Positions 267 through 23,440 of a DNA stretch of 23,847 bases are shown here, one piece after another. The first letter of the stretch is position 1; each line of letters opens with the position of its first letter. Below the pieces are notes generated by a model. The model did not search any database and was not told the origin of the DNA. It worked only from the letters and a program-made list of their open reading frames with translations. Source of the stretch: a virus; the IMG/VR virus record IMGVR_UViG_3300012411_000438, positions 1 through 23,847 of that record, one strand, 5' to 3'. Made by a program: the position numbers and the translations under genes.

Positions 267-295
267 AGCGTAGAATAATATCTACGCTCTATTTT
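267..295 (+). terminator. Hairpin with short T-rich tail (possible terminator)
   Basis: AGCGTAGA at 267-274 and TCTACGCT at 281-288 are perfect 8-base inverted repeats around a 6-base ATAATA loop, followed by CTATTTT (289-295). This is the shape of a rho-independent terminator, although the stem is only half GC and the T run is short. It sits alone in the 46-base gap between the first two genes. The Shine-Dalgarno of the next gene (GGGAA) begins right after the T run, so it could instead be an mRNA-stability or translation-control hairpin. Confidence 0.5.
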
Positions 296-305
296 GGGAA
301 ACATC

Positions 306-1727
306 ATGCACGTCAAAGTAGAATATCTACAGTGCGAAGGCAATCTGTTCACCTTCGGAGTAACAACCTGTGGATACTCCCAAAAGTTTTTGTTCAGGTT
401 CCCCAAGTGGTTCCAGTTCTCCCACCAAGATGAACCTAGACTGTTTCTTCTAGTAGCTCCCACCGTTGCAAATCTTTTAGCTTACCAACCAACCAATTCA
501 CAGTTAGAAATAACTGGGATTGTTCAAAAAGACACTCAAGATGCTTTTGTTGAATTAGTTCAACTGATTTCTAACTCAATATCCCACCTTTTGGATAAAC
601 CATTTCAAGAAGTTTCAATATCCTGGAATATCAGACCAATTCCAAAGTTTAATCTTCTAGGACGTTCTAGTATTCTTATCCCAAAAAATACACTAGCTTA
701 TTTTTCTGGTGGGTCGGATAGTATGTTAACTCACTGTCTTTTGCGTTCACTTGGTGAAGACCCGATTCCATTTACTGCTACTCGTTCTTCTATTGCATGG
801 AATCGTGGGGGTCAGAAGCTGGTAGAAGAAAATGCTCAGAATTTGAATGTCAAACCAATTTATGTTTATAATACCGTAACTCACATGAAAAAAATTACTG
901 ATGCAGTTATCTCTAAAACATTAAATACTGTTCCAGAGAATTTAAAGTCTATACGTTTTGAATCATATGGAGACAAAAATTCATTTGTGCATAGATTATA
1001 TGGTCCTGTCCGTACAATGACAATGTTGCCAATGACAGCATTTATTGGTTCTAGATTTAGAGTCAGAAATATCTGTCCAGGTGAAGAATCCCACCAATTA
1101 ACAGAATACCTAGGACAAAACATACCAGATTGTGCTAACTATGAACAGCATTTTCAGTTTCACCAAATAATGTCTAAAATGTTATCATCCTGTAATTGGC
1201 CTATGTCTGTATGGAATCCAGCACCTAATTTAAGTGTATCATTCACTTGGCTTACTCTACATAGAAAATACTATCCAGAGTCAAAAATGATTTCTTCCTG
1301 TGAAACTGCTATTAACAGATGGTGCTACAGATGTGAAAAATGTTTCTTTGTCTACTTTCTATTTCAACTTCTCAGAATTCCCCCTGAAAACTATGGCTTT
1401 GACCCTGTGAAATTGGCAAATAGGCATCAATGGTTCCATCCTCCAATCAATCTAACTAACATTGCTGAAGATACATCGGTCTTTTCTCCCGGTGGTGGGG
1501 AGTGGGCTTGGTCTATTATGCGAATGAAACATAAAAAAATACATCCTATTATCGATAAATTTGTTAGAATACAAAAGTGGGATAACAGTGACGGAGCATA
1601 TGATTGGGAGCCAATCTTGATTAACGACGAAATTTTTATTGGAGTTCCCATTCAGCATCGTGAAAATGTCAAAAAATTGATGTCTGATATACAAACCATT
1701 GGAAATAAAGAAATGGCTAAACAATGA
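306..1727 (+). CDS. PP-loop ATP-pyrophosphatase-like protein with Cys4 site (MurL/QueC-like)
   Basis: A 473-residue protein with the ATP-binding PP-loop SGGSDS at residues 134-139, after a strand (AYF) as in the N-type ATP pyrophosphatase family, where the loop binds ATP so that a substrate carboxylate can be adenylated. Cysteines 332, 340, 343 and 346 form C-x7-C-x2-C-x2-C, the spacing of the zinc site of QueC. The overall length, the region before the Cys cluster and the hydrophobic helix after it (CFFVYF) look more like the larger MurL-type PP-loop proteins (MurL is a cell-wall precursor glutamate epimerase). I assign the superfamily, not the reaction. ATG 306 follows GGGAA; a TTG at 294 is less likely. 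The gene looks more AT-rich than its right-hand neighbours, suggesting separate acquisition. Its stop overlaps the next start (ATGA). Confidence 0.65.
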   Translation: MHVKVEYLQCEGNLFTFGVTTCGYSQKFLFRFPKWFQFSHQDEPRLFLLVAPTVANLLAYQPTNSQLEITGIVQKDTQDAFVELVQLISNSISHLLDKPFQEVSISWNIRPIPKFNLLGRSSILIPKNTLAYFSGGSDSMLTHCLLRSLGEDPIPFTATRSSIAWNRGGQKLVEENAQNLNVKPIYVYNTVTHMKKITDAVISKTLNTVPENLKSIRFESYGDKNSFVHRLYGPVRTMTMLPMTAFIGSRFRVRNICPGEESHQLTEYLGQNIPDCANYEQHFQFHQIMSKMLSSCNWPMSVWNPAPNLSVSFTWLTLHRKYYPESKMISSCETAINRWCYRCEKCFFVYFLFQLLRIPPENYGFDPVKLANRHQWFHPPINLTNIAEDTSVFSPGGGEWAWSIMRMKHKKIHPIIDKFVRIQKWDNSDGAYDWEPILINDEIFIGVPIQHRENVKKLMSDIQTIGNKEMAKQ

Positions 1728-2101
1728 AAACTCCAAAGTGGAAAACATTCTACCGAGATATTAAAATTGGGATTCCCACCACTACTGTCGTGGTGACTCT
1801 CAAAGTGTTCATTGTGGATGGTGGGGTGGTGAAACTGGAAAATCCGCCATTCTGCGAAGGTGGTAACTTCAAACGATATTCATTCATCCCGGATGGAGAA
1901 ATCTGGATTGATGGCAATATCTTCAAGAGCCAGTGGAATGCAATACTGGTTCATGAACTTCACGAAGCTGCATGGATGTTGTTTGGATATCAGTATAGTG
2001 AAGCACACCCCATTGCAGAAATAATCGAAACAATGTTCCGGCAATTGTCTCCCACCAAACAACAGGCGTTTCTGGATAAAATACACTATGAGGACGTCTG
2101 A
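1724..2101 (+). CDS. Zincin-like small phage protein (125 aa)
   Basis: The C-terminal half carries VHELHEAAW at residues 76-84, then YSEAHPIAEIIE (91-102). An HE..E block on a helix followed about 15 residues later by AH..A...E is a recurring pattern in small phage and bacterial proteins annotated as hypothetical or metallopeptidase-like. The strict HExxH signature is not met: the order is H-E-L-H-E. Metal binding by His77, Glu78, His80, Glu81 and His95 is possible but unproven. The N-terminal half is beta-rich, with a TTTVVVTLKV stretch. The gene overlaps both neighbours by 4 and 1 bases, so translation is probably coupled. No specific role is known. Confidence 0.65.
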   Translation: MKTPKWKTFYRDIKIGIPTTTVVVTLKVFIVDGGVVKLENPPFCEGGNFKRYSFIPDGEIWIDGNIFKSQWNAILVHELHEAAWMLFGYQYSEAHPIAEIIETMFRQLSPTKQQAFLDKIHYEDV

Positions 2102-2832
2102 TGAACATTCCAATTATTATTCCAAGCCGTGGTCGGTCCCAATTAGGGACAACATGGAACCTGTTTCCACAAGCTATCTTATACGTCCATGAATCCGAAT
2201 ATACTGAATATTCTCAAAATCTTCCCGAGAAAGTATTTGGAGTCCACAACCTAACCAATCTCGCTGCTATTCGTAATTCCATACTCAACCGATACCCAGT
2301 AGGGTCTTGGGTCATTTTGATGGACGATGACATTAAGAAAGTTGGCAAGTTTACTTGGAACGCTGAAACCAAGAAGGCCAAGTCTGTAAAAATGGAACCA
2401 GCAGATTGGTTGGCTGAATTTATTGGATGGATTGAAAAGGCAGACAAGCAGAAATATCATCTGGTCGGCCCTCATACCAGCAATCCACTTAATCACGATG
2501 GAAAACAATTCAAGATTTCCAAATTCATAGATACGGTTCTCATAGCCATAAAAATTCGTCCAGACCTCCGCTACGATGAAGTCTGCCAAATCAAGAATGG
2601 CATGGGTATCAATGCACTTGTTGTCAGCAAAGGATGGGGTTCTTTGCGTTTGGACTATCTCTGGAGAGAGTCTGACTACCACAAAATGTCTGGTGGTTGT
2701 CAGGGATACCGAACACCAGCAATGGAACAAGCTGCGTGTCAGTACCTTACCAAGAAATACCCCGGATTCTTCGTTGTAAAGCAAACTGAAAAAACCAACT
2801 GGGATTTGCGGTTTAGACCACCTAAGGGATAA
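2101..2832 (+). CDS. GT-A glycosyltransferase-like protein, TAGT family type
   Basis: The 243-residue protein opens with a strand and the motif IIIPSRGR (residues 5-12), then AILYVHESEYTEY (25-37), an arginine in AAIRNSIL (55-62), and VILMDDDI (71-78). The Asp triad at 75-77 is where GT-A glycosyltransferases bind the metal of a nucleotide sugar. This order matches my memory of the TET-associated glycosyltransferase (TAGT) family, which is predicted to put sugars on hydroxymethylated bases in phage DNA. No TET/JBP oxygenase is in the window, but a thymidylate-synthase-fold enzyme that could make a hydroxymethyl nucleotide lies at 22604-23440. The gene starts inside the previous stop codon. 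Acceptor and sugar are unknown; DNA as target is inferred. Confidence 0.65.
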   Translation: MNIPIIIPSRGRSQLGTTWNLFPQAILYVHESEYTEYSQNLPEKVFGVHNLTNLAAIRNSILNRYPVGSWVILMDDDIKKVGKFTWNAETKKAKSVKMEPADWLAEFIGWIEKADKQKYHLVGPHTSNPLNHDGKQFKISKFIDTVLIAIKIRPDLRYDEVCQIKNGMGINALVVSKGWGSLRLDYLWRESDYHKMSGGCQGYRTPAMEQAACQYLTKKYPGFFVVKQTEKTNWDLRFRPPKG

Positions 2833-7027: not shown

Positions 7028-7612
7028 ATGATGTCTATACTAAACTACCCTTCTGAATTGGTTCCGTGGTTATCCTGCACTAAATGTGGACTCCATCATT
7101 GGAGAAAAAATGTAGTCATAGGGCGTGGGGTCTGGCCTGCTGACATACTTTTCATAGGTGAAGGACCGGGGAAAACCGAGAATTTATTTGGTCAGCCGTT
7201 TTGTGGACCAGCAGGTAGAATCTTAGACAAGGGCATTATCTACTGTCAGAACGAACTGCATCTATCAGAGTTCCCCAGATATTTTATAGCGAATTCCGTG
7301 GCATGTCGTCCTACTGATTCAACAAATGGTTTCAATCGAGAACCATCAGAGGAAGAATTTTTAGCCTGTTGGCCATTACTCAAACGAATACACCAGATAG
7401 TTCAACCCAAGCGAGTAGTGTTTCTGGGAAAAGTGCCAATGAAGTATTGCAAGGAAGCATTTCCCAATGGAGTTTCTATCTATCATCCATCGTACATACT
7501 AAAATCTGGTGGTGAAAGCAGTCCTGTATTTCTCACGTTTGTTCGACAATTGATGGACGTGTTCCAAAGTATTCAGAGTAAGTCTAGAATTCGGAAAGTG
7601 GCTAAAGCATGA
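7028..7612 (+). CDS. Family 4 uracil-DNA glycosylase-like protein
   Basis: Removes uracil from DNA in known family members. Motifs in order: CTKC (Cys17, Cys20), GEGPG (residues 44-48), GQPFCGPAGRILD (55-67), IANSVACRP with Cys93, Cys114, and YHPSYIL (152-158). The four cysteines match the ligands of the 4Fe-4S cluster typical of thermophile-type family 4 enzymes, and motif order and length (194 aa) agree. It may protect phage DNA from uracil or act in a modified-base pathway with the thymidylate-synthase-fold enzyme at 22604. Two adjacent ATGs (7028, 7031) could start it. It overlaps the next gene by 4 bases. Confidence 0.85.
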   Translation: MMSILNYPSELVPWLSCTKCGLHHWRKNVVIGRGVWPADILFIGEGPGKTENLFGQPFCGPAGRILDKGIIYCQNELHLSEFPRYFIANSVACRPTDSTNGFNREPSEEEFLACWPLLKRIHQIVQPKRVVFLGKVPMKYCKEAFPNGVSIYHPSYILKSGGESSPVFLTFVRQLMDVFQSIQSKSRIRKVAKA

Positions 7613-7950: not shown

Positions 7951-8111
7951 AAATCTATTTCGAAGATGAATCAGACTACCAAAAGGTGTACTGTTTCAGA
8001 CACGCTGTTGTTCGAGTAATGTCTGGTCAGAGGATTGAACCAAAACCCAGAGAAGTAGATGGTGAGGATCCTCGCAACTATTCATGCGTTGACTGTTTAA
8101 TTGGAAGATAA
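7938..8111 (+). CDS. Small CxxC protein (57 aa)
   Basis: A short frame starts at ATG 7938 inside the end of the previous gene and stops at TAA 8109-8111, just ahead of the nuclease. It begins MPNIEIYFEDESDYQKVYCF and ends with CVDCLIGR, giving Cys19, Cys50 and Cys53 and a nearby His22 as possible zinc ligands. AGGAG at 7925-7929 lies 8 bases upstream of the ATG. Without it there would be an unexplained 165-base gap in a genome that otherwise leaves none, which supports it as a gene. Confidence 0.55.
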   Translation: MPNIEIYFEDESDYQKVYCFRHAVVRVMSGQRIEPKPREVDGEDPRNYSCVDCLIGR

Positions 8112-8115
8112 AATT

Positions 8116-9084
8116 ATGCCAGCAATCCTAAAGCCTAAGCCAGTCTCTCGCTTCCACACTGGTTACACCATCGAACAGGGTGCGACACAGGGTATGCTCT
8201 GTAATTACTATGGATGTCGTGTCCGTATGGCAAACTTTCTCAATGGTTGGACCCAAGTAACTGGTGGAGGGTCAAACCGCGCCATAGACTTCGGAAGTTT
8301 GTTTCACGGTATGCTGGAAGCGTGGTATCTTGCACCAGAAGGTTCTGATCCCGTAGATGTTTCATATGACTACGCGAAAGAATACCGCAAGGGACAACTG
8401 GAAGATGGTGCAGATGCAAATGATACAGAAGAAGACATCGCAATGATGTTAGGATGTTTTCTGGCATACACAGAAAAATGGAAGAAATCCGATGCCATGA
8501 AAACATGGGTCGCTCTGGAGAAAGTGTTCGACGTAAAGTTCCACGGATATCGTATGCGAGGTCGTAGGGATGGTTTGTTCAAGTTTTCCAAATCCAATGG
8601 CCTGTGGCTTACCGAACGTAAGACATTTTCCAGAGATGATAACCTTGCAGCAAGGGAAGCATGTCTCAACTTCGATTTCCAGAATCAGTATTACATTGTA
8701 GCTGCGGAAGAGGAATACGGTGAGCCTGTGGTGGGTGTTGAATACGACATGATACGCAAACCCGGACTCAAGAACTGGGATAGCCCCAAAGACCTGACCA
8801 AGCGTGTCGTGGAAGATGCAATGGCTAGACCAGATTTTTATTTCCGACGTTATGAAATAGTGTACCCTGCCAGTCAGATAAAGAAGTTCCGAGAAGAAGA
8901 ACTGCTACCCAAGTTCCAAGAATTTGAGAAATGGGTATCTGGGGACAAGACATACGCTACGTTCCGTAACCAACCGAATGCCTGTTATGGGAAGTGGAAC
9001 TGCTCCTATATCGCGGCATGTGCAAATGATGGCTTTTCAGGATATGACCAAAGCGGGGAATTGTTCGGGGAATTACAGGATTAA
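8116..9084 (+). CDS. PD-(D/E)XK nuclease, RecB/Cas4-like, possible Fe-S cluster
   Basis: The 322-residue protein has the core of RecB-like exonucleases: FGSLFHGMLEAW (residues 59-70, counterpart of the G--H--LE motif), Asp152 in GRRDGLF, Glu167 and Lys169 in LTERKTF, and the Q-motif FQNQYYIVAA (188-197). Cys29 and Cys34 near the N-terminus plus Cys290, 296 and 302 near the end resemble the four-cysteine Fe-S clamp of Cas4/AddB nucleases, although spacing differs. Together with the Sak4-like ATPase and ssDNA-binding protein just downstream it forms a phage recombination set in which the nuclease makes 3' ssDNA tails. ATG 8116 is chosen over TTG 8101. Its first five residues are the same as those of the protein starting at 3428. 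Confidence 0.8.
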   Translation: MPAILKPKPVSRFHTGYTIEQGATQGMLCNYYGCRVRMANFLNGWTQVTGGGSNRAIDFGSLFHGMLEAWYLAPEGSDPVDVSYDYAKEYRKGQLEDGADANDTEEDIAMMLGCFLAYTEKWKKSDAMKTWVALEKVFDVKFHGYRMRGRRDGLFKFSKSNGLWLTERKTFSRDDNLAAREACLNFDFQNQYYIVAAEEEYGEPVVGVEYDMIRKPGLKNWDSPKDLTKRVVEDAMARPDFYFRRYEIVYPASQIKKFREEELLPKFQEFEKWVSGDKTYATFRNQPNACYGKWNCSYIAACANDGFSGYDQSGELFGELQD

Positions 9085-9111
9085 CTTTACTTTTCTTTAG
9101 GAGGTCGTGCT

Positions 9112-10062
9112 ATGGCAGTCGTGTTGAAGAAAACTGTACCAACTCTCGTTCGTAGAAATGTTCCAGTTACACCTCAGTATGTTATTCCAACAAAACCGAA
9201 AACTGCTGTGACTGACATTAATCAGTACGTTTTTATGATTTATGCTAGGGAAGGATTTGGCAAGACAACTGGATTCGCCACATGGCCCGATAGTATGTTC
9301 TTTTCATTTGAACCTGGAACTAAAGCGTTGGAAATCAGAGAATTCTTTTCTCAAAACAATGTTCAACCCAGTTGGGAAGCATTTCGTGCTGCTGTTGCTA
9401 TGTTAATAAAGATTCCGGTAGAAGAACGAACAGTCAAAAGTTTAATCTTGGATACTGGAGATAAAGCGTATGATTGTTGTATGGACTGGTTCTGTAAAGA
9501 CCGAAAAATACCATATCCCGGAGAAGATAGTGATGGTGATGAAGATTGGGGTAAAAGTTGGAAAGAATTAAAGAAAGAATTCACGGAACAAATTTGCATG
9601 GCATCCAACGCAGGATACGGTATTGGGATAACAAGCCACAGTAAAACATCAACAATTAATTCAGCAAGTGGGTCAAAGTATGAAATTATCACTCCAACTA
9701 TGGGTGGACAAGCATTCAGTGTTATGAGGGCAATTACAGATTTCATTTTTTATGGGGAATACGTTAAAGATTCGAGTGGGAATCCTGTTCGAGTTTTAAT
9801 TACTGAAGGTGATGAATTAGTAACCGCAAAGCATCATGAACGACAGGGAATTCGTATGCCGAAATACCTTCCGTTCCCCGCGCCGTGGGAAAACGAAACT
9901 CCCTACGAAGTTATCAGCAAAGCATTTAATGGACAACACCCTGGACTTGACCCTTCAACCTTCCAAACCAGTAAGCTGACCAGCGTGGCGGGTGTCAAAC
10001 AAGTATTGAGCACGAAAGCTGCTTCGCTCAAGACTGTGGTTAAGAAAGTAGGTCAAGCATGA
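9112..10062 (+). CDS. Sak4-like RecA-fold ATPase
   Basis: A 316-residue P-loop protein with Walker A AREGFGKT (residues 45-52), a Walker B-like LILDTGDKA, and a conserved GIGITSHSKT segment seen in Sak4-type phage proteins. Sak4 proteins are small RecA relatives that help ssDNA-binding proteins anneal strands during recombination and replication. The context agrees: exonuclease upstream, DUF669-type ssDNA-binding protein downstream. Translation starts at ATG 9112 behind a strong AGGAGGT, the best ribosome site in this region, suggesting high output. The first residue of the P-loop is Ala instead of Gly, a tolerated change. The 27 bases before it are T-rich. Confidence 0.8.
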   Translation: MAVVLKKTVPTLVRRNVPVTPQYVIPTKPKTAVTDINQYVFMIYAREGFGKTTGFATWPDSMFFSFEPGTKALEIREFFSQNNVQPSWEAFRAAVAMLIKIPVEERTVKSLILDTGDKAYDCCMDWFCKDRKIPYPGEDSDGDEDWGKSWKELKKEFTEQICMASNAGYGIGITSHSKTSTINSASGSKYEIITPTMGGQAFSVMRAITDFIFYGEYVKDSSGNPVRVLITEGDELVTAKHHERQGIRMPKYLPFPAPWENETPYEVISKAFNGQHPGLDPSTFQTSKLTSVAGVKQVLSTKAASLKTVVKKVGQA

Positions 10063-16363: not shown

Positions 16364-16506
16364 AGTGCAGATGTACCGTTTGCAAAGTGGCATAGGCCCA
16401 ATGGCACTAAGGCAATGGCGCAATACACTGGACGCAAGCTGTGGCGTTTCTAGGGCGTGTTCTGTGGCATACCAGACAGCCCAATAACCTAAGGAAAGGG
16501 TGTAAA
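16364..16506 (+). other. 143-base gap with hairpins and an interrupted mini-ORF
   Basis: This is the longest gap in the window. A bulged hairpin with GGGC (16453-16456) and GCCC (16479-16482) ends and a CATA loop, and a smaller ACGC/GCGT hairpin (16432-16447), are visible. The strong GGAGGT at 16354-16359 serves no intact long frame: TTG 16360 gives MKCRCTVCKVA then stops. Shifting forward by one base after TGC (16381-16383) reaches a frame that continues KWHRPNGTKAMAQYTGRKL and ends at TAG 16448-16450. An alternative 40-codon frame starts at GTG 16365. A broken small Cys-rich gene is the best guess; alternatively an RNA leader of the ParB-like gene. Confidence 0.3.
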
Positions 16507-17265
16507 ATGGCAGTAGCGAAGGTCGCTAAGGTTGAAAAGGTTCCGGCTTCTACTTTGGAACCGATTACGGAGCATAAGTACAATTTGGACATTACAATGG
16601 TCCCATTGGAAAACTTGAAACTGTGGGACAACAATCCACGCGTGAATGATGAAGCAGCAGATAAGTTGATTCCCATTATTGGCAAGCATGGGTTTATTAG
16701 TCCCATCATTGCCACCCCTGATGGGATTATTCGTGCAGGGAACACTCGCTACAAGGCCGCGATTAAAATGGGCTTCAAAACCGTTCCAGTTATCTATGTT
16801 CCGTTTGGCAGCGAGTCTGATGCGGAAATGTATTCAGTAGCTGACAACCGAGCTTCGGAGTTCGCGTCGTGGGACCAAAATAAGCTGTCGGAAATCTTTG
16901 GTGAACAGTCTATCAAGCTGGAACAAATGGCAGTATCTACTGGGTTTTCATTCCAGGAAATAGAGGGCTTGAGAAATCAGGCTCTACCAAAAGCCCCAGA
17001 AGGAGTAATGGTTATTGCTCCAGAAGATTTAACTCCAGAGGAGCATGAACTTATTGGCAAAGCGGCTAAGTCCAAAATGCTCAAAGTTCTGGTACTTTGC
17101 TTCGACAACAATGAAAAAGACAAAGTGTTCCATCTGTTAGGTGTTCCTCCCAAAACCAAGATTACAGTGATGGCTAGAGATTGCAAGAACGTGGCTGGCG
17201 TTCGTGTACCAGTGAAGGTTGCAGTTGAAACTCCCAAGCGTTCAAGAGTTAAGAAAGAGGAATAG
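16507..17265 (+). CDS. ParB/Srx-fold protein
   Basis: A 252-residue protein. Residues about 30-130 match the ParB N-terminal domain: VPLENLKLWDNNPRVND, IGKHGFISPIIATPDGIIRA, GNTRYKAAIKMG, VPVIYV, and DNRASEFASWD. ParB-fold domains bind CTP or act as nucleases, and in phages they are often next to or fused with DNA methyltransferases. A methyltransferase lies 4 kb downstream (21243). The C-terminal part (about 180-252) is not recognised and ends in a basic Lys/Arg tail that could hold DNA. There is no helix-turn-helix region typical of partition ParB, so plasmid-like partition is unlikely. AAGGAAAGGG precedes ATG 16507. Confidence 0.75.
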   Translation: MAVAKVAKVEKVPASTLEPITEHKYNLDITMVPLENLKLWDNNPRVNDEAADKLIPIIGKHGFISPIIATPDGIIRAGNTRYKAAIKMGFKTVPVIYVPFGSESDAEMYSVADNRASEFASWDQNKLSEIFGEQSIKLEQMAVSTGFSFQEIEGLRNQALPKAPEGVMVIAPEDLTPEEHELIGKAAKSKMLKVLVLCFDNNEKDKVFHLLGVPPKTKITVMARDCKNVAGVRVPVKVAVETPKRSRVKKEE

Positions 17266-17974
17266 TATCATGGCAGAACTTACTCAGTTTGATCTCTCGT
17301 TCGTGATGAGCCGTATTCCAAAGGACGTTATTACACTCCTAAAAGAAAACAAAGGACTCGCTTTTGGAGGTGGATTCATTCGTGCAACTATTGCACATGA
17401 AAAAGTTTCTGACATTGATATGTTTGGCTCTGATGCAGCTGTTCTCAAAATAATTGCAACTACATTTGCTCTCAAACGCGGCGGGAGACTGTTGGAATCA
17501 AAAAATGCTCTAACTGTGCTGGCTCCCCCACGAATACCTGTACAATTTATCACTCGTTGGTTATGGGAAACGCCTGAGGCTGCCATGATATCTTTTGACT
17601 TCACAATTTGTCAGACTGCAATCTGGTTTGACCAAACTTCTGGCAAATTTTGTAGTGTGTGCAGTGAACGTTTTTATTCTGACCTTGCTGCAAGACGGTT
17701 ATACTATACTGCCCCAGAAAGATTAGAAGCTCCAGGTGGAAGTCTTTTGCGTGTAAGAAAATTCTTGGCAAAAGGATATAATATCCAAGCACCATCGTTG
17801 GCAAGAGTAGTGTACCGTTTGATTCGTGATGTAGATTTTCAAAATATGCATCGAGTTGATTGTGAGAAAGTGCTCATTGGACTTCTTCGTGAAGTAGACC
17901 CATTAACAATAGTAGACGGAGTTGACGTGGTTGACGAACATGAAGTCTTAGAAGGTGAGAAATAGTATCATGGC
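17261..17974 (+). repeat. 14-base exact repeat at two consecutive gene starts
   Basis: AATAGTATCATGGC occurs at 17261-17274 and again at 17961-17974, exactly 700 bases apart. Each copy runs from the stop region of one gene through the ATG of the next (17270 and 17970). A shorter version, TAGTATCA, follows the stop codon of the gene ending at 11440. Confidence 0.7.
17270..17965 (+). CDS. Nucleotidyltransferase-fold protein (231 aa)
   Basis: GLAFGGGFIRATIAHEKVSD followed by IDMFG (residues 29-53) is the Gly-Gly plus Asp48-x-Asp50 signature of the pol-beta-type nucleotidyltransferase fold shared by CCA-adding enzymes and poly(A) polymerases. Downstream, FDFTICQTA, the aromatic DLAARRLYY stretch and a helical C-half with LRVRKFLAKGY agree with a CCA/poly(A)-like layout. 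I cannot say which nucleotide is added or to what; tRNA-end repair, antiviral-like signalling or small-molecule adenylation are all options. ATG 17270 follows AAAGAGG. The gene starts within a 14-base sequence repeated exactly at the next gene's start. Confidence 0.7.
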   Translation: MAELTQFDLSFVMSRIPKDVITLLKENKGLAFGGGFIRATIAHEKVSDIDMFGSDAAVLKIIATTFALKRGGRLLESKNALTVLAPPRIPVQFITRWLWETPEAAMISFDFTICQTAIWFDQTSGKFCSVCSERFYSDLAARRLYYTAPERLEAPGGSLLRVRKFLAKGYNIQAPSLARVVYRLIRDVDFQNMHRVDCEKVLIGLLREVDPLTIVDGVDVVDEHEVLEGEK

Positions 17975-19274
17975 TACACTCAATGTAGGGAAGTACCGTT
18001 CACCAAGATGGACAAGTGAAATCAACACCTGTTCCATGCCCATGACCTTCGACCAGTACAACCGATGTAGTTTTCGATGTTTCTATTGTTTCGCGGACTT
18101 TCAACGTAGCGCGAATGATGTTCGTAGTGGAAAGTTCACGGATAGAACACAGGTGGATAGCGTCAATCCGGAACTGGTAAAGTCTGTATTCGATATGACT
18201 ACCACCAGTCCTGGAATGAAACAGTTTATTCCGTTTATCAAAGAACGGAAAATTGTTCAGTGGGGCGGTATGTCTGACCCGTTCTGCAATTACGAACGTC
18301 AGTTTGGTATCGGTCTTCAGATACTACAGCACCTTTCTGCAATCAACTACCCAATGTCTTTCAGCACCAAAGGCTCTTGGTGGACAAAAGACACACGGTA
18401 CACTGACTGCTTCAAAGGTCACAAGAACTGGTCTCTGAAAATTTCATGCACAGTCCTTGGAGAAGAGAAACGCCAGTTGGTGGAACCCGGATGCTCTTCA
18501 ACCATGGACCGTTTTGCAGCAATGGAACGCATGGCTAAACTGGGAATCGGCACTATTTGTTTGAGACTGCGTCCGTTTATCATTGGGCTTACCAATCCAG
18601 ACCACAAAGAACTGATTAGGTTGGCGGCACTATCTGGAGCAAAGATTATTAATGCCGAGTTCTTGTGTTTGGATAGCCGATGCAAGCCTCTCCGGGATAT
18701 CTTAGCTACAAAGATAAACCCAGTTGCCAAATATGATATGTTGAAGTTCTACGAAAAGTGTTCTGACAGCACTGGATACATGCGTTTGAATTGGAAAATC
18801 AAAAAACCATTCGTGGAAGATATGGTTGAAGCGTGTGATAAATACGGGGTATCACTCTACATGGCAGACAATAACTGCCGTGGCAGGGAGATTGGTTTGA
18901 AGAAGTTCTATGGTGTGTCTGACGAAAGTTACGGTGCTAAATGTTCCAGAGGACAATGGGTAGAAGCATTGCGAATATGTGTAGAAGAAAAACGACCGTG
19001 TACATGGAATGACATTGGTCAGCATCTGGATTACGCAAAGGGATTTCTGTATCGTGTTGCAGAAGGTTTCAACACTAAAGGGTGCGAAGAAAGAGGGTCG
19101 TTTCACAATCACACCATGAAAGATTGGTTGCAATGGCATTGGAACCATCCAAACAGCCCTAAGAGTCCTATGGGTACGTTTGAAGGGCTACTCAAACCAC
19201 TTGACCAAGATGCAGAAGGTAATTTACGGTACATTCTCAACCAAGAACTTGTTGACAAGAGAGCGCGGGAATAA
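17970..19274 (+). CDS. Radical SAM enzyme, spore-photoproduct-lyase-like class
   Basis: The 434-residue protein has the radical SAM Fe-S motif CSFRCFYC (Cys33, Cys37, Cys40), preceded by SPRWTSEINTCSMPMTF, where a further cysteine (Cys21) occurs. Radical SAM enzymes cut S-adenosylmethionine to a 5'-deoxyadenosyl radical for difficult C-H chemistry. The SAM-binding barrel is suggested by alternating strands such as IVQWGGMSDPF and GTICLRLRPFIIG. A C-terminal region (about 300-434) is rich in Trp, Cys and Arg. The general arrangement resembles SPL-related radical SAM proteins, some of which act on DNA, but the substrate is unknown. Two bases later follows the DUF2284-like gene, likely a partner. 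ATG 17970 lies in the repeated AATAGTATCATGGC. Confidence 0.8.
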   Translation: MATLNVGKYRSPRWTSEINTCSMPMTFDQYNRCSFRCFYCFADFQRSANDVRSGKFTDRTQVDSVNPELVKSVFDMTTTSPGMKQFIPFIKERKIVQWGGMSDPFCNYERQFGIGLQILQHLSAINYPMSFSTKGSWWTKDTRYTDCFKGHKNWSLKISCTVLGEEKRQLVEPGCSSTMDRFAAMERMAKLGIGTICLRLRPFIIGLTNPDHKELIRLAALSGAKIINAEFLCLDSRCKPLRDILATKINPVAKYDMLKFYEKCSDSTGYMRLNWKIKKPFVEDMVEACDKYGVSLYMADNNCRGREIGLKKFYGVSDESYGAKCSRGQWVEALRICVEEKRPCTWNDIGQHLDYAKGFLYRVAEGFNTKGCEERGSFHNHTMKDWLQWHWNHPNSPKSPMGTFEGLLKPLDQDAEGNLRYILNQELVDKRARE

Positions 19275-19276
19275 CC

Positions 19277-19741
19277 ATGCCTAGTATCCTAGTCAAACCA
19301 GTTCTGGACACAGGAGTGCGTAGTCTGTGCATTCAAGCATACCCGAATCATCCTAAAGGTTGTCCAAACTACGGACAGAAACTTACGTGTCCACCTAATG
19401 CGCCAATCTTCGATAGGATTATCAACATACACTGTCCAGTGTATGCTATCTACAATGTGTTTGATTTGGAAGCACATCGAGAACGTATGCGAAAGCTTCA
19501 TCCTGAATGGAGTCCACGACAGCTAGACTGTTGTTTGTACTGGCAACCTTCCGCCAGAAAGCAACTTAACATGGAAATTTACTCATTCCTTCTTTGCCAT
19601 ACTGGGTGGAGAATAACCACATGCCCAGAAGCGGAAGGTGTCAACGTGACGGATACCATGAAAAGAGCTGGAGTGTTTCTAGAATGGCCTCCGGTGCATA
19701 CTACATACCAGATAGCTTTAGCTGGTGTTCCTTTTCATTAG
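19277..19741 (+). CDS. DUF2284-like Cys-rich metal-binding protein (154 aa)
   Basis: The N-terminal half has CIQAYPNHPKGCPNYG, then LTCPP (Cys18, Cys29, Cys38), and the C-terminal half has Cys107 and TTCPEAEGVNV (Cys116, residues 114-124) followed by a Gly at 132. This is the CPxYG/CPP...EAxGxxV layout of DUF2284 proteins, proposed to bind Fe-S clusters. Cys53, Cys85 and Cys86 add further possible ligands. The gene begins two bases after the radical SAM stop and is probably produced with it; a role in electron supply, cluster handling or substrate presentation for that enzyme is inferred. It starts MPSILVKP, one of the recurring beginnings noted in the findings. Confidence 0.65.
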   Translation: MPSILVKPVLDTGVRSLCIQAYPNHPKGCPNYGQKLTCPPNAPIFDRIINIHCPVYAIYNVFDLEAHRERMRKLHPEWSPRQLDCCLYWQPSARKQLNMEIYSFLLCHTGWRITTCPEAEGVNVTDTMKRAGVFLEWPPVHTTYQIALAGVPFH

Positions 19742-19753
19742 GAGTAAATAATT

Positions 19754-20608
19754 ATGTCAGCTAAGTTAGTCTTTAAGAAAACTAAAATATGTGAATGTTG
19801 TGGAGAGAAGTTTATTCTGAAACAAAAGCAGCCCCATCAGAGATTTTGTAGTCGGAAATGTAGTGGAAAATTTGGTAGGGGAGAACCAAGAGGTACTTTT
19901 GATAAAATATGTGAATGCTGTGGTAAATTATTTAAGACACCAAATCAACGACCAAATCAAAGATTTTGTAGTAATTCCTGTTCTAATAAACATACTTCAA
20001 CTGGGAGACATCCAACAAAAGAAACAGTAGAGAAAATTAGGTTATCAAACACAGGGAAACAAAGAACAAAAGAAACAATAGAAAAGTTGAGATTATCACA
20101 CATTGGTAAACATCTTCCAGAAGAACAAAAAATAAAAATAGGAATTTCAGGAAGATTAGCATATAGTGAAGGACGTACAGAACCACCGAAGTCTTCTGAC
20201 TGCTATGAACATGGAGATTTTCATTCTACCAGACAAAATTTGGATATTTACTACCAATCATCCTATGAACTAGCTGCTCTCAAAATTATGGAAGCTTCAC
20301 CTAAATCTATCCTAACTTTTATTCGTGGAACTGTATACAGAATGCCCTATGAAGCAGAAGATGGTAAAGTTCGCACATACTTTCCTGATTTTTATGTTAG
20401 ATATTCTAATGGAACAGAAGGTCTTGTTGAAGTGGGTTACGTCAACGACTTAAATAGAAAATTTTGTAAAATTCTAGCTGCTATAGATTACTGTGATGAA
20501 AGGAGGTGGTCATTCGAAGTATGGTGTGAAATATCAGATAACGAAATTATTGAAGAACTGTCTGAAGTATGTACTGTTAGACAAATGAAACAGTTTGTAG
20601 GTAAGTAA
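19754..20608 (+). CDS. Homing-endonuclease-like protein with two zinc ribbons and NUMOD3-like repeats
   Basis: A 284-residue probable selfish nuclease. Two near-identical zinc ribbons lie 40 residues apart: CECC at 13-16 with CSRKC at 32-36, and CECC at 53-56 with CSNSC at 72-76. Residues 88-120 repeat TKETVEKIRLSNTGKQ and TKETIEKLRLSHIGKH, as in NUMOD3 DNA-binding motifs of homing endonucleases. The C-terminal part resembles a PD-(D/E)XK fold: QSSYELAALK (169-178), YFPDFYV with Asp212, and LVEVGY with Glu226. The Lys expected two residues after Glu226 is Gly228. The gene is clearly more AT-rich than its surroundings and is inserted between neat operon partners, both signs of horizontal entry. 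TTAGGAG precedes ATG 19754. Confidence 0.75.
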   Translation: MSAKLVFKKTKICECCGEKFILKQKQPHQRFCSRKCSGKFGRGEPRGTFDKICECCGKLFKTPNQRPNQRFCSNSCSNKHTSTGRHPTKETVEKIRLSNTGKQRTKETIEKLRLSHIGKHLPEEQKIKIGISGRLAYSEGRTEPPKSSDCYEHGDFHSTRQNLDIYYQSSYELAALKIMEASPKSILTFIRGTVYRMPYEAEDGKVRTYFPDFYVRYSNGTEGLVEVGYVNDLNRKFCKILAAIDYCDERRWSFEVWCEISDNEIIEELSEVCTVRQMKQFVGK

Positions 20609-22452: not shown

Positions 22453-22611
22453 GTGGCGAAATTGCCAGAATTCACGGAAGAAGCACATATCACCGGATGT
22501 TGTGGTGGTAAGATTGGGTGTACTCATGAATTTGATGAAACTCTTCCAGATTGTCAGGAATGTGTCAGAGATGCCATAAAAGGTATTGAAGAGGAGAATC
22601 GAAATGGCTAG
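22453..22611 (+). CDS. Small Cys-rich protein (52 aa)
   Basis: GTG at 22453 follows GGAGGG (22441-22446) and the product has CCGGKIGC then DCQEC, five cysteines plus one His within about 22 residues, which could form a compact zinc site. The C-terminal third is acidic and helical (AIKGIEEENRNG). It overlaps the thymidylate-synthase-fold gene by 8 bases. Function unknown. Confidence 0.55.
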   Translation: MAKLPEFTEEAHITGCCGGKIGCTHEFDETLPDCQECVRDAIKGIEEENRNG

Positions 22612-23440
22612 TATATTCGTGAAGGAAAAGACTCTACCCGCAGCGTGGGAAATGGCTGTGTTATCCTGCTGGTCTGATGGAGATATTATTCCAACCCAGT
22701 ACGACAAGCCGGGTGACCCTCCTAGCAGGGATTGCGCGGCGTTGATTGTGGTGGAAGACCCTCTGGCTGAGCCACGTATCCACAAAGCCTTTCCTGGAAG
22801 CTATGGCAAGCTGGAAGAGTATCGCCAGGAAGTGGTACTGGGTATTCATGACGGTTGGATTAACCCTGATGAAGGCAAGTGGACTTATACGTATCACCAG
22901 AGATTTACGAACCATCCTTCTGGTGCTGAATATGTTGATGGAGAGAAGGATGAAAGTGGATGCTTCGGAATTGACCAGCGTCAATGGGCTTTGAGGGCAT
23001 TGACAGAAGCTCCGCACTCAAGACGTGCTCTACAATCTACTTGGTATCCTCCAATGGACTGTGGCAGCACGGAACCACCCTGCGTTCAGTATATCACAGA
23101 CCGGGTGTTTGGGAATAAGCTGGTGAGGCATGTGCATATTCGCAGCAACGATGCGTTCAAGGCTTGCTTTATGAACGGATGGGCTTTTATTGCTGGTCAG
23201 ATTGAAATGGCTGAGGAACTTTCAGTTAGACTTGGCAGAGTTATTGAAGTTGGAGAGTTCAGGTGGTTTGCTGATTCGTTCCATATTTACGGCAGCTACT
23301 TCGAACAGTTCAAGGGCTTTCTGGATTCAGTGAAGAATCGCACTTGGGAAGAGCGCACTATCCGAAGTGATGATGAAAGTGTGGTTGAAGCGTTTGCCTC
23401 CGCCAGAGAAGCCATTGCGCGTGGAGAACTGGTAGTATGA
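22604..23440 (+). CDS. Thymidylate-synthase-fold enzyme (dUMP-type; synthase or hydroxymethylase)
   Basis: The 278-residue protein keeps the active-site plan of the thymidylate synthase superfamily: HSRR (residues 138-141, phosphate-binding arginines), catalytic Cys160 in TEPPCVQYI, phosphate-binding Arg180 in HIRSND (178-183), Asn191 and HIYGSYFEQ (227-235). Asn191 is at the position of E. coli Asn177, which reads uracil; dCMP hydroxymethylases have Asp there, so dUMP is the likelier substrate. The RSND form resembles the archaeal/phage branch rather than E. coli ThyA. It could make dTMP or 5-hydroxymethyl-dUMP. Phages use the latter as a base for glycosylation or other modification; a TAGT-like glycosyltransferase is at 2101. 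ATG 22604 has AGGAGAA upstream. Its stop overlaps the next start. Confidence 0.75.
   Translation: MASIFVKEKTLPAAWEMAVLSCWSDGDIIPTQYDKPGDPPSRDCAALIVVEDPLAEPRIHKAFPGSYGKLEEYRQEVVLGIHDGWINPDEGKWTYTYHQRFTNHPSGAEYVDGEKDESGCFGIDQRQWALRALTEAPHSRRALQSTWYPPMDCGSTEPPCVQYITDRVFGNKLVRHVHIRSNDAFKACFMNGWAFIAGQIEMAEELSVRLGRVIEVGEFRWFADSFHIYGSYFEQFKGFLDSVKNRTWEERTIRSDDESVVEAFASAREAIARGELVV

Follow-up and report, generated by a model that had tools for sequence, protein, structure and literature searches.

A spore photoproduct lyase-like radical-SAM enzyme takes the place of TET/JBP in phage DNA-hypermodification cassettes

Introduction

Spore photoproduct lyase (SPL) is a radical-SAM enzyme that acts on thymine in DNA by way of a thymine-methyl radical. 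Enzymes of the TET/JBP type, which are to our knowledge the known route for oxidising the methyl group of a pyrimidine inside DNA, require oxygen. A radical-SAM enzyme is also encoded by Pseudomonas phage M6, and Lee et al. are said to have assigned it in 2022 a tailoring role in thymidine hypermodification that follows hydroxymethylation.

The usual handle for such modification is a 5-hydroxymethyl-pyrimidine, and 5hmdU is phosphorylated in DNA ahead of tailoring (PMC6449724, PMC12783734). The enzymes that install the handle are accompanied by ParB domains (PMC12783734, PMC11955845), and ParB-like, TET-like, aGPT-Pplase2-type and 5hmU-kinase genes together make up a named thymidine hypermodification system (PMC11955845). 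Both the cassette and the enzyme superfamily are thus already known; what appears to be new is that an SPL-like radical-SAM enzyme stands in for TET/JBP. No prior report of such a substitute was found in the open literature searched, and a mention outside that set is possible.

The phage locus

The DNA analysed, called the window throughout, is the whole 23,847-nucleotide stretch (23.8 kb) of the IMG/VR virus record IMGVR_UViG_3300012411_000438, which carries phage replication genes. The features that concern us are the following.

2101..2832, plus strand: TET-associated glycosyltransferase (TAGT); PF20691 29.0 bits, cut-off 27.5
16441..17265, plus strand: ParB-like protein, 274 aa; phrog_620 E 6e-31, PF02195 E 2e-5, just under cut-off
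17219..17965, plus strand: nucleotidyltransferase-like protein, 248 aa; phrog_4400 (unknown function) E 3e-12, phrog_1614 (nucleotidyltransferase) E 4e-4
17970..19274, plus strand: SPL-like radical-SAM enzyme (rSAM), 434 aa, ATG start; assigned by motif, NCBIfam matches, fold and cassette position
18066..18089, plus strand: CxxxCxxC radical-SAM cluster motif, codons C33-C40; conserved in relatives
18867..18896, plus strand: rSAM residues 300-309, the di-cysteine region of relatives, absent here; alignment of 64
19277..19741, plus strand: DUF2284-like small protein, 154 aa; PF10050 33.7 bits
19754..20608, plus strand: homing-endonuclease-like gene with a zinc-finger/HNH-like N-terminus and a TnsA-like nuclease; PF08722 37.5 bits
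21243..21917, plus strand: DNA N6/N4 methyltransferase; PF01555 E 2e-29
22586..23440, plus strand: thymidylate-synthase (TS)-like protein; PF00303 36.9 bits, cut-off 24.3

The first-pass annotation had described a CxxxCxxC radical-SAM protein followed after two bases by a small DUF2284-like protein, and this placement was recovered exactly, the 154-aa ORF starting two bases past the rSAM stop codon. The ParB-like gene is one gene away from rSAM, and the TAGT, for which the handle is probably the substrate, lies 15 kb from it. The TS-like protein is a possible source of thymidylate or 5-hydroxymethyl-dUMP. No kinase gene and no gene for an amino acid:DNA transferase (ADDT) was assigned within the 23.8-kb window. 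The nucleotidyltransferase-like neighbour, earlier taken as a clue to function, has no homologue in the flanks of the rSAM relatives. PADLOC assigned neither rSAM nor the DUF2284-like protein to a defence family. The homing-endonuclease-like gene is probably mobile and outside the system; homologues of it (L037:493-1413 and L060:6323-7255) are located between the split-intein halves of the rSAM genes of relatives.

The radical-SAM protein and its family

The window's rSAM contains the motif C33-x3-C37-x2-C40, and its AlphaFold model (pLDDT 92.7) shows a confident radical-SAM fold whose best matches are all radical-SAM enzymes, which bears out the class proposed for it at first pass. The closest solved fold is that of SPL (VIA Z 19.2), followed by SuiB (16.1), and ranks 1-6 of the Foldseek search are all SPL. 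The sole Pfam match is Radical_SAM (PF04055) at 16.2 bits, under the cut-off of 29.5; this is a search threshold, and for membership of the radical-SAM enzymes it is outweighed by motif and fold. The Tet_JBP domain (PF12851) is absent from the protein, and the likeness to TET/JBP proposed here is one of function only. The NCBIfam matches are to the PA0069-type (NF033668, E 1e-14) and Rv2578c-type (NF038135, E 1e-11) models, with both curated cut-offs missed (53.9 vs 360 bits and 44.5 vs 430 bits, respectively). Searches of PDB sequences with rSAM, the DUF2284-like protein and their profiles returned nothing significant.

Single-protein scans of viral contigs yielded 27 rSAM relatives and nine DUF2284-like relatives, and alignment-based scans raised these to at least 80 and to 74. 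Removal of near-identical copies left 72 rSAM loci, drawn from the at least 80 relatives listed, and 63 DUF2284 loci. Most of the relatives' records are fragments, and single absences are weak evidence. In an alignment of 64 rSAM proteins that includes the window's own, C21, C33, C37 and C40 are conserved (C33 and C37 in 63 of 64, C40 in all 64). A C-terminal vicinal di-cysteine, mostly SCCG, is present in 63 of the 64 and is missing solely in the window's copy.

The window's rSAM is the least certain member of the family and its reaction may have changed, because it has lost the SCCG motif, sits on a long branch of the rSAM tree (1.03 vs a median of 0.3) and shares its genome with a TS-like gene. 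These same three features would fit a copy that is decaying or has been repurposed, with the TS-like gene providing the hydroxymethyl pyrimidine and an rSAM without its di-cysteine site doing something else. On the other side, the reading frame is unbroken, the protein retains its radical-SAM cysteines together with most of the other conserved residues, and confidence in the modelled core is high. Decay or repurposing appears doubtful, if still to be reckoned with. It concerns the window's copy only and is compatible with the explanation given below for the family.

Gene neighbourhood and exchange with TET/JBP

Gene families within 6 kb of rSAM were counted over the 72 dereplicated loci, among the matches listed. 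The commonest neighbour is ParB-like (46/72), followed by TAGT (34/72) and the portal gene (26/72). GT1 glycosyltransferases and SPASM radical-SAM genes occur at 11 loci each, P-loop kinases at ten, ADDT at eight, B12 radical-SAM genes at five and GATase II at four. Of the 72 loci, 53 contain one or more genes of the glycosyltransferase, kinase, ADDT or GATase II kind, and these neighbours are DNA-hypermodification enzymes. The earlier suggestion of a radical-SAM catalyst that acts on DNA and is linked to ParB is supported by this company. Other radical-SAM genes are located within 6 kb at 19 of the 72 rSAM loci, compared with none in the flanks of 47 TET/ADDT loci. A TS-family gene is present in three of 50 rSAM records and a TET gene in two of 50, the latter from one lineage, so that a second source of the handle is mostly missing from these records. 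A shorter sister family of about 340 aa, present for example in the anaerobe genomes L271, L274 and L278, mostly adjoins ParB. Judging from genomes and bins, the hosts of both families belong mostly to anaerobic lineages, among them Clostridium, Faecalibacterium and Fusobacterium.

Viral contigs were also searched with the ADDT proteins from rSAM loci. The combined ADDT alignment was too diverse and a narrower alignment, A7, was used. The cassette recovered in this way is mostly ParB - TET - GATase II - ADDT - kinase. Among 52 dereplicated ADDT-anchored loci, 47 contain TET without rSAM, two contain rSAM without TET, three contain neither and none contains both. In whole viral ADDT records TET/JBP is present in 34 of the 35 without rSAM and in none of the seven with rSAM (Fisher p = 3e-7, on records that were not dereplicated). 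The lack of a TS-type hydroxymethylase was dropped as a stand-alone argument: ADDT records without rSAM lack TS as well (0/35), and the informative contrast is therefore confined to TET.

On the ADDT tree the TET/rSAM label swaps at least four times, and starred close pairs are found in opposite states, namely the sisters L227 (rSAM) and L233 (TET), and L023 (whose gene is a copy of that in L017) with L181/L182/L185. The same exchange is seen beside TAGT, where the order is ParB-TET-TAGT in L306, L307 and L315-L319 and ParB-rSAM-TAGT in L312-L314; neither TET nor rSAM was found near ten of the 24 TAGT loci. One lineage, L005/L006/L007, contains both in the order ParB-TET-ParB-rSAM-TAGT, and because L323, to which it is closely related, has the TET module but no ParB-rSAM, the ParB-rSAM pair appears to move as a unit. 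Both this coexistence and the TAGT loci near which neither gene was found weigh against the function proposed below. Hence rSAM takes the place of TET/JBP in the cassette, and does so repeatedly.

Proposed function

From the observed family, fold, cassette membership and exchange with TET/JBP we infer a reaction and a substrate base. On balance, and by a modest degree of confidence, the family is read as SPL-like radical-SAM enzymes that would act after replication, and independently of O2, on a 5-methylpyrimidine in DNA, likeliest thymine, at the step otherwise performed by TET/JBP. A wider proposal is put forward more tentatively, namely that in phages of anaerobes the SPL-like rSAM could be the O2-independent counterpart of TET/JBP, hydroxylating, or in some other way activating, the methyl of thymine or 5-methylcytosine once the DNA is complete and feeding both the glycosylation branch and the phosphorylation/amino-acid branch. 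Independence from O2 is argued indirectly, because the hosts are mostly anaerobic lineages and other radical-SAM genes lie nearby.

In the proposed mechanism rSAM would cleave SAM to give a 5'-deoxyadenosyl radical, which would abstract hydrogen from the methyl group of a pyrimidine in phage DNA, and the enzyme would leave a hydroxymethyl or equivalent handle without O2. The ParB-like protein would place rSAM on the DNA. The handle would then be decorated by a glycosyltransferase (TAGT or GT1), or by a P-loop kinase together with ADDT, and the decorated bases would shield the phage genome against host nucleases. In this scheme the DUF2284-like protein would be an optional accessory.

Alternatively, rSAM could be a tailoring enzyme that acts once the handle is in place, rearranging or oxidising an attached amino acid or sugar in the manner reported for the enzyme of phage M6. 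That enzyme (L171:20120-21628) is SPL-like and related, matching the same NCBIfam models and, weakly, the A1 profile (E 0.008); in L016, L055, L069 and L073 the window-type rSAM gene has M6-type relatives close by; TET and rSAM coexist in L005-L007, and the window itself has a TS-like gene. Against this, the family accompanies two tailoring branches that are unrelated to each other, TAGT/GT1 and kinase/ADDT, the loci that lack TET/JBP are precisely those with rSAM, and beside an M6-type enzyme the window-type rSAM gene is an additional one and no substitute. A tailoring role is considered unlikely, and the action of rSAM at the TET/JBP step is preferred.

If that reading holds, there is a second and unrelated chemistry for making hydroxymethylated DNA. 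It would account for post-replicative genome masking in phages of anaerobes and might provide an oxygen-free tool for DNA base labelling. The same reading would also mean that ParB-like proteins travel with whichever enzyme installs the handle.

The DUF2284-like protein

The small protein passes the Pfam cut-off for DUF2284 (PF10050; 33.7 bits vs 25), in agreement with its first assignment. It shares the conserved cysteine-proline stretch with the Pfam family, the best matched stretch covers profile positions 20-42 only, and it belongs to a short phage subfamily with an HPKGCPN...CPP...YWQ signature of its own. At least five conserved-looking cysteines had been noted in it. In alignment A4 this is true of C18 (54/54), C29 (54/54) and C38 (51/54), and it is not borne out for the poorly kept C85 (35/54), C86 (29/54) and C116 (28/54). 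The protein is modelled at a pLDDT of 96.6; Foldseek gave no clear match to this model (best E 1.3), and the top VIA rows are all nitroreductase-like flavoproteins, at a best Z of 5.5 that is too weak for use.

The two genes had been envisaged as a dedicated two-component system, with rSAM as the catalyst and the DUF2284-like protein as its cluster or electron partner. In the window and in L022 and L102 the two are tandem or overlapping, in L018 they are neighbours that converge, and in L088, L086 and L101 they are separated by 0.3-2.3 kb. Where both occur on one examined locus they lie within 3 kb in seven of nine cases, and the chance of such closeness given co-presence is about 3e-10 by a naive estimate that assumes random placement. 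Association with DUF2284 corresponds to six changes on the rSAM tree, and starred branches force no fewer than five of these. The association is recurrent, non-randomly close and of at least five separate origins.

These points speak for a dedicated system, as does L029, in which a DUF2284-like gene is found ahead of a different radical-SAM gene. They are opposed by the counts: among the matches listed, a DUF2284-like gene lies within 6 kb in only nine of the 72 dereplicated relatives and in 63 it does not, and most DUF2284-like genes of phages share their record with no such rSAM. The gene-neighbourhood survey proposed with the original idea thus went against it. Whole rSAM records contain a DUF2284-like gene in two of 27 cases in the first scan and six of 50 in the second, and DUF2284 records contain an rSAM relative in one of nine and three of 50. 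An obligate pair is ruled out by the counts over the 72 rSAM and 63 DUF2284 dereplicated loci, and a dedicated two-component system is improbable. The DUF2284-like protein is instead proposed to act as an optional accessory that has been gained repeatedly, possibly an Fe-S or redox helper.

It was also considered whether DUF2284 could substitute for the di-cysteine site that is missing in the window. This is unlikely because the DUF2284-neighboured rSAMs L018, L154, L102, L088, L086 and L101 keep the motif.

Comparison with known systems

SPL is the best fold match of rSAM, but a phage SPL- or photolyase-like enzyme for mending UV lesions is highly improbable, as the neighbours are hypermodification and not repair genes, rSAM exchanges with TET/JBP and it falls well short of the thresholds set for the SPL-like NCBIfam models. 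The PA0069/Rv2578c-type SPL-like proteins provide the best named family models, with scores far under the curated cut-offs. SPL itself (PDB 4FHF) has the same CxxxCxxC motif and aligns with rSAM over 262 residues (Z 19.2, rmsd 3.0 Å) at approximately 13% identity. rSAM differs from it by about 130 extra C-terminal residues, near the start of which lies the family-specific di-cysteine that the window's copy has lost, and by its setting, which is a modification cassette and not the repair of spore-forming hosts.

The M6 enzyme is likewise SPL-like and is encoded in a thymidine-hypermodification cluster beside ADDT-type and P-loop kinase genes, but it belongs to a separate subfamily, as the weak profile match indicates, and M6 carries a TS-type gene, found by the same search, that is likely its source of the handle. 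Phage TET/JBP (PF12851) occupies the same position in the cassette as rSAM and has the same ParB, kinase, GATase II, ADDT or TAGT neighbours. The two proteins are unrelated: TET/JBP is an enzyme of iron, 2-oxoglutarate and O2, whereas rSAM belongs to those that work through a 4Fe-4S cluster and a SAM radical.

Inteins and a probable mobile element

Intein sequences interrupt the radical-SAM gene at its CxxxCxxC motif in several loci of relatives:

L026, 6779-9227: intein-interrupted radical-SAM gene, insertion before the third Cys
L027, 6779-9227 (the same coordinates as L026): the same, before the third Cys
L060, 5875-8468: the same, before the third Cys
L037, 21-2794: the same, before the first Cys

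The intein of L060 and L037 is split, with a separate endonuclease gene between its halves, and a nuclease-like frame lies between the intein halves of L026. In the window the gene next after the DUF2284-like gene (19754-20608) is homologous to the endonucleases of L037 and L060, and on the strength of this homology the same mobile element may have visited the window locus in the past.

Other genes of the window

294-1727: protein of 477 aa that carries the PP-loop-like motif SGGSDS and the cysteine cluster CYRCEKC
7028-7612: member of the uracil-DNA-glycosylase superfamily (PF03167, E 7.5e-20)

The 477-aa protein matched no Pfam family and its MurL-like match is weak (E 0.02). The phage with this glycosylase gene is suspected of carrying modified pyrimidines.

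Variation within the radical-SAM family

The TAGT (TET-associated glycosyltransferase) genes of the related loci L321/L322 and L323 are 94% identical, yet L321/L322 have the order ParB-TET-ParB-rSAM-TAGT and L323 only ParB-TET-TAGT; the difference is a ParB-rSAM module that was recently gained or lost. A second radical-SAM branch has, directly upstream in place of ParB, a 112-152-aa protein of no assigned function (L024, 7468-7908, and 14 other loci), and this pair lies near clamp-loader and polymerase genes. In L019 and L020 (approximately 8001-9245) the radical-SAM homology spans 418 residues by tblastn, yet the frame is split into short ORFs, making stop-codon recoding a possibility in this phage. 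L029 (1271-2819) represents a second kind of DUF2284-radical-SAM neighbourhood: immediately downstream of its DUF2284-like gene lies a radical-SAM gene of another sort (PF04055, E 1.5e-18).

A recurrent order in Clostridia

Bacterial genome contigs of Clostridia share a recurrent order comprising a ParB-like gene, a ~340-aa SPL-like radical-SAM gene and a ~280-304-aa gene (L274, 7414-9840; also L281 and L270, and L269, in which alone the ParB-like gene was not called), which terminase genes adjoin in some contigs. The third gene encodes a PLP-dependent enzyme in L274 (PF00291, E 6e-12) and is similar in appearance in L281, L269 and L270. This order could constitute a further hypermodification cassette.
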